Source of the DNA: an uncultured Hyphomicrobiales bacterium
GTDB taxonomy: Bacteria > Pseudomonadota > Alphaproteobacteria > Rhizobiales > Beijerinckiaceae
DNA length: 13,845 bases
NCBI GenBank assembly: GCA_903903935.1
Contig: CAIVAX010000302.1
Span: 1 to 13,845, forward strand
Direction: 5' to 3'
Part shown: positions 1 to 10,029 of the stretch, one piece after another
Numbering within the stretch: the first letter of the stretch is position 1
Layout: each line of letters begins with the position of its first letter
Notes under the pieces: generated by a model
What the model was told of the DNA's origin: nothing
The model's input: only the letters and a program-made list of their open reading frames with translations
Database searches by the model: none
Position numbers and translations under genes: made by a program

Positions 1-663
1 AGCATCAATGAAAGCCCCATATTGATCGCGATCCAGCGGGCAATTGATATAATCAGCACCTGTGCCACCCGGCCCCATCTTGTCATAGCGCGATTGAAAC
101 CAAGCTTTATTGAGATCAATGCTGTCGCGATAGACAATCGGCGCAATCGCATCAAAGAACGCCAATTGCTCTTCGCCCGTCAGCGCCAAAATTTGCTGCG
201 CCAAAGCTAGTGACGTCAAAGGACCGGTTGCAATGATCACCGGACCTGATCCCAGCTGATCAAGATCGCGCACTTCTTCGCGTTCAATCTGGATCAACGG
301 CTCATTGGCAATGGCCTGTGTCACAGCTTTGGCAAAGCCATCGCGATCCACCGCCAAAGCCCCGCCCGCCGGGACTTGATTCTGATCCGCACAGCCAAGA
401 ATCAATGAGCCCATGCGCCGCATCTCATAATGCAGCTGCCCCACAGCATTGCTCATTGCATCATCGGAGCGGAAGGAATTGGAGCACACCAGCTCAGCTA
501 GAAAATCCGTCTGATGCGCGGGGGTCGGCTGGACGGGGCGCATTTCATGCAACAGCACGGGCACGCCAGCCTTGGCCAATTGCCAAGCCGCCTCACTGCC
601 CGCAAGGCCACCACCAATAATATGAACCGGAGAGATCGCTGGATTTTTGGATGAAAAACTCAT
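1..663 (-). CDS. trmFO: TrmFO, folate/FAD-dependent tRNA U54 methyltransferase (N-terminal part, cut by window start)
   Basis: TrmFO makes 5-methyluridine at position 54 of the tRNA T-loop, using 5,10-methylenetetrahydrofolate as carbon donor and FADH2 as reductant, in the cytoplasm. The first 221 codons are open to the window edge. The translation starts [19 protein letters not shown] and has a Rossmann FAD motif GGGLAGSE at about residues 17-24, then HEMRP near 39-43 and [11 protein letters not shown] around residue 60; that Cys matches the first catalytic cysteine of the family (Cys53 in Bacillus subtilis). The second catalytic Cys would lie beyond the window. AAGGG sits 5 nt before the ATG. 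A TATAAG box (674-669) ends only 5 nt before the ATG, and the terminator of the upstream gene ends about 30 nt before it, so the promoter, if separate, must be very close. Family assignment is firm; GidA/MnmG, a distant relative, lacks this N-terminal pattern. Confidence 0.95.
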
Positions 664-697
664 GTGCCCTTATAGAGCCAAAGTCTCGAATAGAAAA
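664..697 (-). promoter_or_regulatory. Possible trmFO promoter giving a leaderless or very short leader
   Basis: Between the upstream terminator hairpin and the trmFO ATG there are only 34 nt. On the minus strand they hold TATAAG (674-669) as a -10 candidate, with TTTTCT (697-692) 17 nt upstream as a poor -35. The expected start point, 5-7 nt after the -10, falls at or next to the A of the ATG (663). This is inferred from spacing; read-through of the upstream terminator is the alternative. Confidence 0.25.
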
Positions 698-724
698 CGC
701 CCGCCGGGGGAGGACCGGCGGGCG
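691..724 (-). terminator. Rho-independent terminator of the DUF1127 transcript, with UCCUCCC loop
   Basis: Perfect 10-bp GC-rich inverted repeat: arms 698-707 and 715-724, 7-nt loop 708-714. On the minus strand it is followed by TTTTCTATT (697-689), so it terminates minus-strand transcription coming from the DUF1127 gene. The loop reads UCCUCCC in RNA, an anti-Shine-Dalgarno sequence, so the hairpin is also the second arm of the candidate cuckoo RNA. Confidence 0.88.
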
Positions 725-768
725 TGAAGACATGGGATCAATTCATTAGGGAGGACTATCCCATGCCA
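691..768 (-). ncRNA. Candidate cuckoo-family (CcsR-like) small RNA in the 3' UTR of the DUF1127 gene
   Basis: Two hairpins follow the DUF1127 stop codon on the minus strand. Hairpin 1 has perfect 8-bp arms (731-738 and 758-765; CATGGGAT/ATCCCATG) and a 19-nt loop with UCCUCCC (complement of 749-755). Hairpin 2 is the terminator (arms 698-707/715-724), whose loop is again UCCUCCC (708-714). Two stem-loops, each presenting a CCUCC-type anti-Shine-Dalgarno motif, next to a DUF1127 gene is the described arrangement of alphaproteobacterial cuckoo RNAs, such as CcsR1-4 with CcaF1 in Rhodobacter sphaeroides, which are released from the mRNA by RNase E. Only one copy is present here. The 5' end is not visible in sequence; about 25 nt separate the stop codon from hairpin 1. 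Function is inferred from the known family: stress-related pairing to mRNAs or trapping of other RNAs. Confidence 0.72.
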
Positions 769-789
769 AAACTGGTCGCAGAGGCCGGA

Positions 790-945
790 TTAGATGCCAA
801 CACTCTTGCGGGCGACGCTTTCGATCTCGGCGCGTGTAAGGCCAAGATCACGCAATTCGCGATCGGTGAGCTGGGAGAGTTCCCGAACCGAGGTCCGGTA
901 GCGACGCCAAGCATTGAACTTTGCTGTAATCGACTTGATGGTCAT
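790..945 (-). CDS. DUF1127 small Arg-rich protein (CcaF1-like)
   Basis: A 51-residue protein starting MTIKSITAKFNAWRRYRTS. The DUF1127 core is residues about 21-47, with the LSQLTDRELRDLGLTR pattern typical of the domain: a short helix-turn-helix-like unit with Arg in the N-terminal half. GAAAGG lies 9 nt before the ATG. DUF1127 proteins are abundant in Alphaproteobacteria; R. sphaeroides CcaF1 binds RNA and affects sRNA processing and stability, and Agrobacterium homologues affect phosphate/carbon metabolism and growth. Here the gene is followed within 25 nt by the two-hairpin cuckoo-like RNA and terminator, so protein and RNA are probably made from one transcript. The leader carries a strong hairpin and an RpoH-like promoter candidate. 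Family is confident; its exact role in this organism is unknown. Confidence 0.9.
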   Translation of the reverse strand: MTIKSITAKFNAWRRYRTSVRELSQLTDRELRDLGLTRAEIESVARKSVGI

Positions 946-989: not shown

Positions 990-1015
990 GCTGAAATGAT
1001 CAGTTAATGCAATGC

Positions 1016-1044
1016 AACATAAGCGATTCATTCTCTAGGCAAAA
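1016..1044 (-). promoter_or_regulatory. RpoH-like promoter candidate for the DUF1127/cuckoo transcript
   Basis: The minus strand reads TTTTG (1044-1040), a 16-nt spacer, then CTTATGTT (1023-1016). This resembles the alphaproteobacterial sigma-32 pattern CTTG-N17-CYTATNT with one -35 mismatch and a spacer one shorter. The expected start near 1008 would give a leader of about 63 nt containing the 968-989 hairpin. RpoHI/RpoHII control is known for the Rhodobacter ccaF1-CcsR locus, which is why this pattern was sought; the match is suggestive only. Confidence 0.3.
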
Positions 1045-1152
1045 GGTCTAATTGGGAAACACTGATATGCTATTAACGCATAGCTCATTCATAAAAAATT
1101 AATCATGTAAACTGAACTTGACATAACTTTTGATTTTAAGTGATTTAAAAGC

Positions 1153-1529: not shown

Positions 1530-3257
1530 CTAGCCTCTTGGGCGGGTGGTAATGGCCAGAGTCACGGCTGTGCCCGAGGCGACCTTCTCAAGCGAGCGGC
1601 GCAGGGTCGATTCCAACTTGGCCGGATCTTCGACCTTTTCGCCATGGCCGCCGCAGGCCTCGACGATCTTTTCATAATCAACGCTGGGTGCGAGCTCCAC
1701 AACGGGCAATTGATTGGCCTTGGAAGCATGCCCATCGGGATACATGGACAGAGTGGCGCGCCGCACGGCGAACCATTGGGAATTATTCATCACAAGTGTC
1801 AGGGTTGGGATCTTCTCCGCCCGCTGCACAAAATGCGCCGCCGTTGGCACACCAAACATATAAGAGCCATCGCCAACAATGCCGATCACTTGACGATGTG
1901 GCGCCGCTACTTTCGCGCCAAGCATTTGGCCAATGCCCATGCCAAGAGCACCTGAACTTGATGAGATCCAGCAATCGGGCTGTTCCAGATCGAGCGCAGG
2001 AAACGGCACGCCCAATTCATCAGAGATGATCGCGTCTTTTTCCTTCACTTTATTCAGACAGGCCGCCACCCAGAGCGGCGAGATCGGCGCCATGGTCGAG
2101 GCTGCAGCAATTGCAGCATTCACCTTCTCATCTTGGGCCGCACGCAGATCGGCAATTTTGCGACGGCGCTGTTCAATGCCAGCTGCCTGCCCCTTCACGC
2201 GATCGCGCAACGCATCGCGCAACATGCCAATCGCCGCCGCCGGATCACCTGCAACAGCCAGATCCATTTCAAAGCCACGGAAGGGATAGCGGCTGAAGAG
2301 AGGATCATGCGCAATATGCACAAATTTGGCATCGCGCTTGGGTTTAATGTGAGCGGGCATCCACGGCACAGCGGAATCCAGCACAACAATCAAATCAGCT
2401 TTTTCAACGATGGCATGCGAGACAAGGCCCAGATGCATAGGATTGCTGGAGGCAATATTGTGATAGGCCCCGCCCTGTACAAACATGAGAGCATTCTCAT
2501 GCACCAATTCACCCAGAGCATGAAAGGCCTCGCGCGTCGAGCTGGGATGGCCCGCAATAATCAACGGCGCTTCCGCCTTGGCAATCATATCGGCGGCCTG
2601 CTCGATGGCAGCAAAACTTGGCGCGGCGGGAATGGCGCCCAAAGCGCGCCCGCGCGGCAATGACCCATGATCGGCATGATGCTCGGCCAGCACTTCGCGC
2701 GGCAAGGTGAGATAGACCGGCCCTTTGGGCTGGCTCATCGCAATATCCAGCGCGCGCAGCACCATTGTATTGACTGGCTGACCTGAGCGCAGCTCATAAT
2801 CCCATTTCACATGCTCACGCACGATCCCGGCCTGATCGAAATTTTCCTGGGCCCAATGGATCGGCACATCCCGCGAGCCATGCAGACCAGACTCACTGAC
2901 CGGTGTGCGCCCAGCAGCCAAAAGCACAGGTACATTGTCACGCGCCGCATTCATCAAGCCGCAAATTGTATTGGCAGTGCCGACATTCACATGCACCATC
3001 ACACATGACGGCTCGCCGGAAATTTTCGAATAACCCTGCGCCATAGCAATGGCGACATTTTCATGCGGCACTGTCATGAAATTGGGGATCTGCTGTCCCT
3101 GACCCGACATCGCCACTAGGCTCTCAATGATCGGGGCAAAGTCAGTGCCGCCATTGGCAAACACATATTTCACACCGCAGGCATGCAGCGCGGAAAGATA
3201 GGCTTCAGCAACGCTGGTGCCCTTGCCCTGATGGGCTGTGTTTGGCTCTGTGGTCAT
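1530..3257 (-). CDS. Thiamine-diphosphate-dependent enzyme, acetolactate synthase-like, substrate unknown
   Basis: A 575-residue enzyme of the TPP-dependent decarboxylase/synthase superfamily (acetolactate synthase, benzoylformate decarboxylase, oxalyl-CoA decarboxylase relatives). The three-domain layout is visible: an N-terminal pyrimidine-binding domain with the ylide-activating Glu in TVPHENVAIAMAQGYSK (Glu66), a middle Rossmann-like domain around residues 200-370, and a C-terminal PP domain with GDGSYMFG at 462-469 and the closing NN at 491-492, spaced as in the TPP-Mg motif. ATG 3257 is chosen because GGGGAGG sits about 8 nt upstream; the frame is open to 3350 but that extension lacks a ribosome site. 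No small regulatory subunit gene (ilvN/ilvH) is adjacent, arguing against a housekeeping acetolactate synthase. It is divergent from copA across 137 bp. The reaction cannot be named from sequence. Confidence 0.92.
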   Translation of the reverse strand: MTTEPNTAHQGKGTSVAEAYLSALHACGVKYVFANGGTDFAPIIESLVAMSGQGQQIPNFMTVPHENVAIAMAQGYSKISGEPSCVMVHVNVGTANTICGLMNAARDNVPVLLAAGRTPVSESGLHGSRDVPIHWAQENFDQAGIVREHVKWDYELRSGQPVNTMVLRALDIAMSQPKGPVYLTLPREVLAEHHADHGSLPRGRALGAIPAAPSFAAIEQAADMIAKAEAPLIIAGHPSSTREAFHALGELVHENALMFVQGGAYHNIASSNPMHLGLVSHAIVEKADLIVVLDSAVPWMPAHIKPKRDAKFVHIAHDPLFSRYPFRGFEMDLAVAGDPAAAIGMLRDALRDRVKGQAAGIEQRRRKIADLRAAQDEKVNAAIAAASTMAPISPLWVAACLNKVKEKDAIISDELGVPFPALDLEQPDCWISSSSGALGMGIGQMLGAKVAAPHRQVIGIVGDGSYMFGVPTAAHFVQRAEKIPTLTLVMNNSQWFAVRRATLSMYPDGHASKANQLPVVELAPSVDYEKIVEACGGHGEKVEDPAKLESTLRRSLEKVASGTAVTLAITTRPRG

Positions 3258-3394
3258 GGCGCATCCTCCCCTATGTCCCGTGCCTATACCAAGCGCCGCA
3301 GCCGCCACAAAGGGCTTTTCGAGCACTCGGGCCAAAAGGTCACAGGCCAATCCCTAGGCAAGCACTTGGAAAGCCAGCCTCAGGCGCTTAAGTG

Positions 3395-8540: not shown

Positions 8541-9287
8541 ATGTTTGAAGCTGATATACCGACCTTCAAAATCGGCTATCTCTCCCCCCTGCCCATTATC
8601 GACAATGCCGCTTATGAATTTTATCGCCTGGCTCCCCCCGGCCTGATGGCGGTGTTGATTTCAGTGGGCCTGGGCGAGTTTTCCGCCAAAGATGTCGAGC
8701 GCGTCTTTGCACCCCTCGATGGCTATCTCGACCAATTAATGGATCGCGGCATTGATATGACCGTGCAAGCCGGCACGCCTCTGGCAGTGCTGATGGGTAT
8801 AGAGGCGCATGATCGTCTGCTCGATCATATTGCCAAACGCACCGGCAAGCCTGCCACATCAACAGTCACAAGTGTGGTGCGCGCCAGCAAGGCCATGGGT
8901 CTGAAGAAAATTGCGCTCGTCAACAAATGGAGCGAGCCGATGAATAAAGTGCTGGCTGATTTCTTTGCGAGGGATGGCATTCAGGTCTGCGGCACGTCAA
9001 CCAAAGATTTAACGCCTGCTGAATTTGTCAAAATCGAATCCGGCAATCATATGCAATTATGTTATGAGCTGAGCCGCCAAGCCATTCTCAATCATCCCGA
9101 TTGCGATGGTCTTTATGTGGGCGGTGGCACTTGGCTCTCAGTGCCCGTCACACGCGCTTTGGAAAAGGAATTTCCCAATCACGTGATCATTTGCAACCAA
9201 ACTGCACAAATGTGGGATTTCTTGCATATGCTTGGAATCTGGAAGCCGATCCCCGGCTATAATAAATTGCTCGCACAGGCGCATTGA
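8541..9287 (+). CDS. Asp/Glu racemase / arylmalonate decarboxylase superfamily protein, first tandem copy
   Basis: A 248-residue cytosolic protein of the superfamily that includes maleate isomerase, arylmalonate decarboxylase (AMDase) and Asp/Glu racemases, with two Rossmann-like halves. Recognisable parts: an N-terminal strand with PLPIIDNAAYEFYRLAPPG, a mid segment VQAGTPLAVLMG, KKIALVNKW in the second half, and DGLYVGGGTWLSVPV followed by CNQTAQMWDFL near the end. By hand alignment Gly78-Thr-Pro matches the Gly74-Thr-Ser position of AMDase (Cys in racemases and isomerases), and GGG 194-196 covers the usual second catalytic Cys; no Cys is present at either. Other cysteines (188, 218) do not align with them. 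GGGGG lies just before the ATG. The next paralogue starts 1 nt after the stop, so they are translationally coupled. The substrate is unknown. Confidence 0.85.
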   Translation: MFEADIPTFKIGYLSPLPIIDNAAYEFYRLAPPGLMAVLISVGLGEFSAKDVERVFAPLDGYLDQLMDRGIDMTVQAGTPLAVLMGIEAHDRLLDHIAKRTGKPATSTVTSVVRASKAMGLKKIALVNKWSEPMNKVLADFFARDGIQVCGTSTKDLTPAEFVKIESGNHMQLCYELSRQAILNHPDCDGLYVGGGTWLSVPVTRALEKEFPNHVIICNQTAQMWDFLHMLGIWKPIPGYNKLLAQAH

Positions 9288-9288
9288 T

Positions 9289-10029
9289 ATGTTTGAAGAG
9301 GATATTCCCAACATCAAGCTCGGCGGCCTGCTGCCTTTGCCCATTATCGACAATGCCGCTTATGAGTTTTATCGCCTCGCGCCCAAAGGCGTGATGCAAG
9401 TGATGATCTCGGTCGGTCTGTCGGAATTTTCAGCCCAAGATGTCAATCGCGCCTTTTCGCCCTTGGATTCTTATCTCGATCAATTGATGGATCGCGGCGT
9501 GAATATGGTGGCTCAACATGGCGTGCCATTGCCCATTCTCATTGGTGTTGAAGCGCATGATCGCATGATTGCCCATATGGCCAAACGCACCGGCCTGCCA
9601 GCCTCCTCAACTGTGTTAGCAGTGGCGCGCAGCGCCCGCGAATTGGGCTTAAAACGCCTTGTTGTCGTCAACAAATGGACGGATGCGATGAATGGCGTGC
9701 TCGCGGAATTTTTCGCACGCGAGGGTGTCAGCGTGATTGGCAAGACCGTCGAAGAAATGACGCCTGCACAATTTGTCAAACTGAGCAGCAGCGATAATCT
9801 CAAACTCGCCTTTGATCTGGGTCGCAAAGCCTTTCACGATCACCCTGACTGCGATTCCATTTATATTGGCGGCGGGGCTTGGCTCTCCGAACCTGTCGCG
9901 CGCGAATTAGAACGCCTGACCGGCAAGATTGTTTTATGCAATCAATCCGCGATGATCCGCGATCAGTTGAAGACACTCAATGCTTGGGTCCCGCAACAGG
10001 GCCACAGCCGCTTGCTCAGCTTGCCCTAA
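9289..10029 (+). CDS. Asp/Glu racemase / arylmalonate decarboxylase superfamily protein, second tandem copy
   Basis: A 246-residue paralogue of the preceding gene, about 56% identical by hand count overall and about 77% over the first 70 residues. Same features: PLPIIDNAAYEFYRLAPKG, AQHGVPLPILIG (Gly78 at the first catalytic position), KRLVVVNKW, DSIYIGGGAWLSEPV (GGG 194-196 instead of a Cys-containing motif) and LCNQSAM. Cys188 (HPDCD) and the Cys of CNQ are shared by both copies. ATG 9289 is set by homology to the first copy and by the 1-nt gap to its stop; the frame is open further upstream. The two products probably form a heteromer or act on related substrates. The gene ends in a 12-bp tandem repeat shared with the convergent aldolase gene. 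Confidence 0.85.
   Translation: MFEEDIPNIKLGGLLPLPIIDNAAYEFYRLAPKGVMQVMISVGLSEFSAQDVNRAFSPLDSYLDQLMDRGVNMVAQHGVPLPILIGVEAHDRMIAHMAKRTGLPASSTVLAVARSARELGLKRLVVVNKWTDAMNGVLAEFFAREGVSVIGKTVEEMTPAQFVKLSSSDNLKLAFDLGRKAFHDHPDCDSIYIGGGAWLSEPVARELERLTGKIVLCNQSAMIRDQLKTLNAWVPQQGHSRLLSLP

Follow-up and report, generated by a model that had tools for sequence, protein, structure and literature searches.

The co-occurrence of DUF1127 genes and cuckoo RNAs, described as the CIN1 locus, is already in print. In Rhodobacter sphaeroides, the RNAs CcsR1-4 arise from the 3' UTR of ccaF1, and both RNase E and CcaF1 are reported to act in their maturation (PMC8625941, PMC10253847). The initial annotation of the locus studied here had stated that CcaF1 is co-transcribed with CcsR1-4, and these later papers agree with it. 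The alpha-r14 RNAs are described as having three (or four) hairpins with CCUCCUCCC in each loop (PMC10746234, PMC3927594), and one of them, NfeR1, silences mRNAs through its anti-Shine-Dalgarno (aSD) loops (PMC10746234). Control of a DUF1127-cuckoo operon is described for Rhodobacter only, within the literature that we surveyed. Separate reports describe the control of DUF1127 genes by VtlR and of NfeR1 by LsrB; among the literature matches listed, none reports that PhaR or LsrB governs a DUF1127-cuckoo operon. A Caulobacter sponge RNA was also considered for comparison and set aside, the available text offering no matching feature (PMC12559287).

We analyzed a 13,845-nucleotide stretch of DNA (the window) from an 82%-complete assembly with 583 contigs and a total of 2.6 Mb. 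On its minus strand, a gene at 945-790 encodes a small DUF1127 protein of 51 amino acids (PF06568, 64.2 bits against a cut-off of 23.3). It is the one DUF1127 gene found in the assembly; its closest relatives among named records are proteins from Beijerinckiaceae and Rhizobiales assemblies, and an NCBIfam search yielded no name for the protein. After the stop codon, a U-rich stretch of 22 nt leads to the first of two hairpins on the same strand. Hairpin 1 (767-729, minus strand) has a core stem of 8 bp, formed by CAUGGGAU (765-758) and AUCCCAUG (738-731), with two more pairs and a 19-nt loop that contains the aSD heptamer UCCUCCC at 755-749. Hairpin 2 (725-697, minus strand) comprises 11 pairs, the 10-bp CGCCCGCCGG/CCGGCGGGCG among them, its 7-nt loop is exactly UCCUCCC (714-708), and a short U run follows the stem. 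The fold of 790-690 (-40.2 kcal/mol, z = -3.55) contains two stable hairpins, and none of 200 shuffles was as good. Hairpin 2 is terminator-like and is the one such site at 600-1400 when both strands are scanned; the scan alone proves nothing, because shuffles average 1.0 sites. The end of hairpin 2 lies 34 nt from the start of trmFO (1..663, minus strand, start at 663; PF01134, 158.6 bits; NF003739, 312.9 bits), which runs off the window. The 51-codon gene, the two perfect stems of 8 and 10 bp with UCCUCCC in both loops, the additional terminator-like nature of hairpin 2 and the 34-nt distance to trmFO had all been pointed out in the initial annotation and are borne out here. Its reading of the RNA as a 3' UTR product of the DUF1127 mRNA also stands: only 22 nt separate the stop codon from hairpin 1, and therefore any RNA made here would be a 3' UTR product, unless a promoter sits inside the DUF1127 ORF. 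Elsewhere in the window, two adjoining plus-strand ORFs at 8541-10029, of 248 aa (Amdase family, PF17645) and 265 aa, are similar by eye and form an apparent tandem duplication.

The arrangement is like that of ccaF1-CcsR1-4 in R. sphaeroides, which likewise combines a small DUF1127 gene, a 3' UTR RNA and an end terminator (PMC10253847, PMC8625941). It differs in having one RNA unit instead of four and a DUF1127 protein of 51 rather than 71 aa; moreover, the ccaF1 promoter is reported to depend on RpoHI/RpoHII, whereas the promoter found here carries a LysR-type box and a PhaR-type core. Of the features that define a CIN1 locus in PMC10253847, a short DUF1127 gene with an RNA and downstream hairpins with aSD loops that are kept in relatives were found; a third feature, release of the RNA from the co-transcript by RNase E and the DUF1127 protein, is predicted here. 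We consider it likely that the window holds a compact DUF1127-cuckoo operon (a CIN1 locus) that would release a trans-acting aSD RNA from its mRNA 3' end.

A DUF1127 match at E ≤ 1e-6 was present in 43 of 51 genomes of the genus, and we compared 43 distinct genus loci, with the window's own included and five duplicates removed. Hairpins were counted when an uninterrupted stem enclosed CCUCC wholly within the loop at no more than 130 nt after the stop codon. At least two such hairpins follow DUF1127 in 37 of the 42 other genus loci (dinucleotide shuffles, 0.2%), and at least one follows it in all 42 (dinucleotide shuffles, 12.8%). Fewer than two hairpins were counted in L050, L111, L117, L123, and L132. 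In L123, hairpin 1 has no CCUCC; inspection by eye of the remaining four shows the motif in hairpins with an interrupted stem or with a loop above the length limit of the filter. CCUCC is found upstream of hairpin 2 in 42 of the 43 loci and within hairpin 2 in all 43, and the loop conservation that the initial annotation had anticipated is thus present in relatives. In L127 and L128, another CCGCCGG-UCCUCCC hairpin, which is absent from the window, lies past the first terminator and at most 130 nt after the stop codon, as if the RNA were duplicating in tandem.

Covariation had been anticipated for both stems; it was found for hairpin 1, and hairpin 2 hardly varies within the genus. The arms of hairpin 1 reach a stem score of 22.2 with their own partner vs 13.5 with the arms of other loci (0/2000 permutations). 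The own arm is the best or a tied partner in 17 of 42 loci, stems being common to related loci, and 29 different inner arms occur among the 42. For hairpin 2, there are 4 different inner arms and the effect of swapping is small (34.6 vs 33.0, also 0/2000). A MAFFT alignment of 24 loci, folded with RNAalifold, showed a nearly invariant stem for hairpin 2 and did not reveal hairpin 1, whose stems cannot be aligned at the sequence level; for this reason, covariation was assessed by permuting the arms between loci (arm-swap test).

Conservation is looser beyond the genus. Among the 24 best-matching loci from other genera of the family, six have two CCUCC-loop hairpins, 17 have at least one, and seven have none. 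A TrmFO motif lies within 700 nt downstream in 31 of the 41 genus loci with room for it (the window's own included), and trmFO is downstream in 19 of the 24 loci from other genera. The initial annotation had suggested that terminator efficiency may bear on tRNA modification through trmFO. The seven loci without the hairpin would be expected if the DUF1127 gene simply had an mRNA with a structured 3' end, in which hairpin 2 is the terminator, hairpin 1 is protective and no trans-acting RNA is made; the terminator-like form of hairpin 2 and the conservation of its stem as sequence fit this explanation as well. However, protection needs no CCUCC, yet the motif is kept in 42 of 43 genus loci while both arms turn over. 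In addition, the loops of alpha-r14 RNAs are alike, and the aSD loops of NfeR1 are reported to act in trans (PMC10746234). We regard a merely structured 3' end as an unlikely account of the locus and continue to favor a trans-acting RNA.

The Rfam search that the initial annotation had suggested gave no match in the window at gathering thresholds, and its best match was ar14 (RF02344) at 692..805 on the minus strand (model positions 1-123; 39.8 bits, E 4.5e-6 in 421 bases), below the gathering score of 58.8 bits. No other ar14 match in the 2.6-Mb assembly reaches E < 0.01 (E 6.8e-6 for this one; the next has E 0.68). An ar14 match at E ≤ 0.05 was obtained in 44 of 51 genus genomes and in none of the 14 control genomes; when the threshold was relaxed to E ≤ 1, 3 of the 14 controls gave matches. 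The gathering cut-off of 58.8 bits was passed by none of the 51 genus genomes. A wider search of the order, at E ≤ 0.01, produced ar14 matches in 49 of 121 genomes; the cut-off was exceeded in 14 of these, and the controls again had none (0/14). Seven other Rfam matches at E ≤ 10 (6C, anti-hemB, sX13, suhB, STnc310, Hrs10, and a betaproteobacterial RNA) were rejected, as they score far below their cut-offs (anti-hemB, E 0.002) and all lie over the terminator stem.

The initial annotation had taken a two-stem design to be the norm for this kind of RNA, and this claim does not hold for alpha-r14. Because alpha-r14 RNAs have three hairpins and the nonamer CCUCCUCCC (PMC10746234, PMC3927594), two stems with a heptamer are a departure from alpha-r14. 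Three of its defining features are missing here: the score of 39.8 bits does not reach 58.8, a third hairpin is lacking (the first hairpin of the Rfam model is only partly matched), and the loops contain UCCUCCC only instead of the nonamer. The combination of a hypervariable stem with a constant loop is found in hairpin 1; the stem of hairpin 2 is nearly invariant within the genus. The RNA of the window is like NfeR1, the alpha-r14 RNA of S. meliloti (RF02344), in its constant aSD loops and in the LysR-type box at about -65, and is unlike alpha-r14 in that DUF1127 lies directly upstream. It probably resembles and works like an alpha-r14 or cuckoo RNA, yet it fails these three defining features. 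Judged by its sequence, the locus is a cuckoo or alpha-r14-like RNA in the DUF1127 3' UTR in a compact form, with two hairpins and a heptamer.

The linkage to DUF1127 extends to the order, where a DUF1127 ORF lies within 500 nt upstream and on the same strand in 17 of 29 ar14-matched loci, which were drawn from 48 other matched genomes. Four of these order-level loci (L005, L006, L013, and L025) have two to four DUF1127 ORFs in the 3-kb locus around the ar14 match, and the genomes of L005 and L006 have at least two ar14 matches within 500 bases of each other.

A third CCUCC-loop hairpin occurs in the 5' leader of DUF1127 in 9 of 42 genus loci (L059, L110, L112, L114, L118, L121, L126, L129, and L132; shuffles, 0.7%), so that aSD hairpins stand on both sides of the gene. 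This position puts the motif beside the gene's own start, as would be expected if UCCUCCC acted in cis by pairing with ribosome sites on the same or a neighboring transcript, namely those of DUF1127 or trmFO. In the window, however, GGGAGG is absent from the leaders of both DUF1127 (GAAAGGCTAAATT) and trmFO (TATAAGGGCAC), and the DUF1127 leader has no CCUCC hairpin. Action in cis is in our view highly improbable, and the trans-acting RNA is again preferred.

Upstream of the gene, a LysR-type box, ATGCGTTAATAGCAT, lies at 1067..1081 on the minus strand, has the form ATGC-N7-GCAT and fits T-N11-A. The ATGC-N7-GCAT palindrome is conserved in 38 of 42 genus promoters (the window's own included; shuffles, 1.0%). 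A -10 element, TATGTT (1016..1021, minus strand), stands at a fixed spacing from it within the genus: TANNTT is located 52-53 nt from the box center in 28 of the 38 box-bearing promoters, and each of the other offsets from 25 to 79 accounts for 0-3. If transcription begins about 7 nt after the hexamer, the start would be at about 1009 and the box would be centered at about -65. This is a common binding place of LysR-type activators. The box, which combines the T-N11-A pattern with a layout of the TGCA-N6-GCAT kind and lies near -65 at a fixed distance, could be the site of an LsrB/VtlR-type activator. The published LsrB site at the NfeR1 promoter is TGCA-N6-GCAT at -72 to -60 (PMC10746234). 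The window's box is one base off this site; the exact form is found in 12 of 42 genus promoters and, with one mismatch, not in the window. The VtlR box is GCAT-N3-TG-N3-T (PMC7486931), which 7 of 42 genus promoters contain exactly and which the window does not fit exactly. The LsrB site and the VtlR box overlap the same GCAT. In the window's assembly, the box followed by NNCWG occurs at five places, one of them here, and the reversed pattern at 0. The locus is comparable to the VtlR system of Agrobacterium and Brucella, with its AbcR RNAs, in the putative LysR-type control of a small DUF1127-type gene; unlike in that system, where the protein and the RNA are reported as separate targets, both are joined here and the exact VtlR box is missed. 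A divergent 57-aa Lys/Ala-rich ORF without a Pfam match lies at 1335-1508 on the plus strand, opposite the DUF1127 promoter.

A candidate for the activator is present in the genus. A LysR-type gene adjoins trxB in 11 of 13 loci examined, and lsrB is reported to lie beside trxB (PMC11975290). At E ≤ 1e-60, 46 of 51 genus genomes have the trxB-adjoining LysR-type protein, as do 30 of 30 of good quality; we call it LsrB from its place beside trxB and not from comparison with a named LsrB. In the window's own assembly, which is 82% complete, LsrB was not found and no TrxB scored above cut-off, and its four LysR-type proteins match no NCBIfam model above cut-off, one of them being nearest to OxyR. 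LsrB is described as redox-sensing (PMC11975290, PMC8844928).

Two further promoter patterns were considered. A strict search gave a LysR-type box in 1 of 17 DUF1127-linked and 6 of 12 unlinked alpha-r14 loci of the order, as if the linked loci were without it; this idea was dropped when the contrast faded with the VtlR consensus (exact, 3 of 17 vs 5 of 12; with one mismatch or none, 13 of 17 vs 10 of 12, with a null of about 30%). The genus is therefore not claimed to be unique in having the box. An RpoH-like promoter, which the Rhodobacter operon would lead one to expect, was found in 0 of 29 order-level loci, using a crude pattern without a positive control; within the genus, 5 of 42 promoters contain this pattern, and the window lacks it.

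A second conserved element, TGCATTGCA (1008..1016, minus strand), overlaps the -10 element and the putative start. Its core, TGCRNYGCA, is found in all 42 genus promoters, against 3.9% of shuffles. It resembles the PhaR consensus, TGCRNYGCASMA (PMC6201568), and this 12-mer is present with at most one mismatch in all 42 genus promoters (shuffles, 8.4%) and exactly in 15 (shuffles, 0.5%); the window has the exact core and is one mismatch off the 12-mer. Furthermore, TTGCATTGCA of the window equals the middle of a site in the S. meliloti phaP2 promoter, which PhaR binds (PMC12542648). We suggest that TGCATTGCA at -10/+1 is a candidate site of a PhaR-type repressor. The locus would then also be like that of MmgR in S. 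meliloti, an RNA with an aSD motif and a PhaR site in its promoter (PMC7143759, PMC12542648); unlike the RNA studied here, MmgR belongs to the alpha-r8 family, and no link to DUF1127 is reported for it in the available text of these papers. In the order, the core occurs in 10 of 17 DUF1127-linked loci (null, 4.6%) vs 2 of 12 unlinked loci (null, 4%). Among the 24 best-matching loci of other family genera, the core is present in 17 and the exact palindrome in 11. The core is also found in four of the seven family loci without any CCUCC hairpin, and the promoter element and the RNA are therefore not strictly tied.

It is possible, if somewhat doubtful, that TGCATTGCA is not a PhaR operator and instead provides the LysR-type regulator of the upstream box with another binding site, or belongs to the start region. 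Binding at two sites is frequent among LysR-type regulators. The element and the upstream box have TGCA in common, and the exact 12-mer is limited to 15 of 42 promoters and does not occur in the window. Against this, the same 15 of 42 contrasts with 0.5% in shuffles, and the element takes two alternative places that are 20 nt apart: all 38 box-bearing promoters have TGC-NN-YGCA at a distance of 57-59 or of 36-39 nt from the box center, 25 at the first place only, 9 at the second only and 4 at both. The PhaR site of SMa1961 in S. meliloti is also reported to lie between the -10 element and the start (PMC12542648). A PhaR-type site is thus the reading that we retain.

With respect to possible targets, the assembly contains 29 occurrences of the pattern GGGAGGA-N3-9-ATG vs 3 of the reversed pattern. 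Subtracting the hairpin-1 antisense, one double place and seven ORFs shorter than 60 aa leaves 20 ORFs of at least 60 aa. Six of these score above cut-off for ABC or TctC transport families and a seventh (TctC) scores below it; the 20 also include three Rieske oxygenases, one thiamine-diphosphate (TPP) enzyme encoded in the window and three ORFs without a Pfam match. The candidate site of the TPP enzyme, a GGGAGGA ribosome site with ATG at 3255..3270 (minus strand), is predicted from the pattern only. The start of this enzyme is probably the ATG at 3257, behind a perfect GGGAGGA, and not the upstream TTG at 3350. As background, we used 68 ORFs of at least 100 aa from 12 readable contigs, which is a weak sample; 8 of the 20 contigs sampled from the assembly read entirely as N. 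In this background, no ABC family has two or more members, and one ORF is TctC-like by eye; single matches are covered for the first 25 of 182 families. If one to five transport genes are assumed in the background, Fisher's test for six of 20 gives p from 0.0004 to 0.015. This bias among predicted targets agrees with that reported for the predicted targets of NfeR1, and strong ribosome sites on abundant binding proteins would give the same bias.

From the observed gene, hairpins, conservation, covariation of the hairpin-1 arms and conserved promoter elements, we infer how transcription, processing, pairing, target choice and control by an LsrB/VtlR-type activator and a PhaR-type repressor may proceed. 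One promoter with a start at about 1009 would yield an mRNA that carries the DUF1127 ORF and two hairpins exposing UCCUCCC. An RNase E-type cut in the U-rich spacer between the stop codon and hairpin 1 would free an RNA of about 75-80 nt. Its loops would mimic the anti-Shine-Dalgarno end of 16S rRNA, pair with ribosome sites of the GGGAGGA type and block the translation of mRNAs for transport or uptake and for catabolism. The DUF1127 protein may help to process or use the RNA, as CcaF1 does in Rhodobacter, or alternatively may act on proteins such as PhoR; RNA-binding and protein-acting (PhoR) roles of DUF1127 proteins are called a puzzle in the literature (PMC12501420). The activator would be of the LsrB/VtlR type at -65, and the repressor of the PhaR type at -10/+1.

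We tentatively propose, as a possibility short of a probable one, that the operon is a two-input switch, with a redox-sensing LsrB/VtlR-type activator at -65 and PHB-sensing PhaR on the core promoter. If this is true, a cell that is oxidised and has a full carbon store, with PhaR on PHB granules, would make the small protein and the aSD RNA from one transcript, and the RNA would shut down nutrient uptake and catabolism. PhaR would then be an indirect activator of transporters via the RNA. In a study of S. meliloti PhaR, 30% of the PhaR-activated proteins in one medium had transport functions, and the PhaR motif is reported at only seven activated genes (PMC12542648); this result could be explained if PhaR represses an RNA that represses transporters. 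The promoter points to two candidate regulators, each at a defined position, and leads to the prediction that the RNA appears under PHB accumulation and oxidation, with targets at GGGAGGA ribosome sites, many of them of transporters. If the proposal holds, the fields of DUF1127 proteins, alpha-r14 RNAs, LsrB and PHB would meet in one locus.
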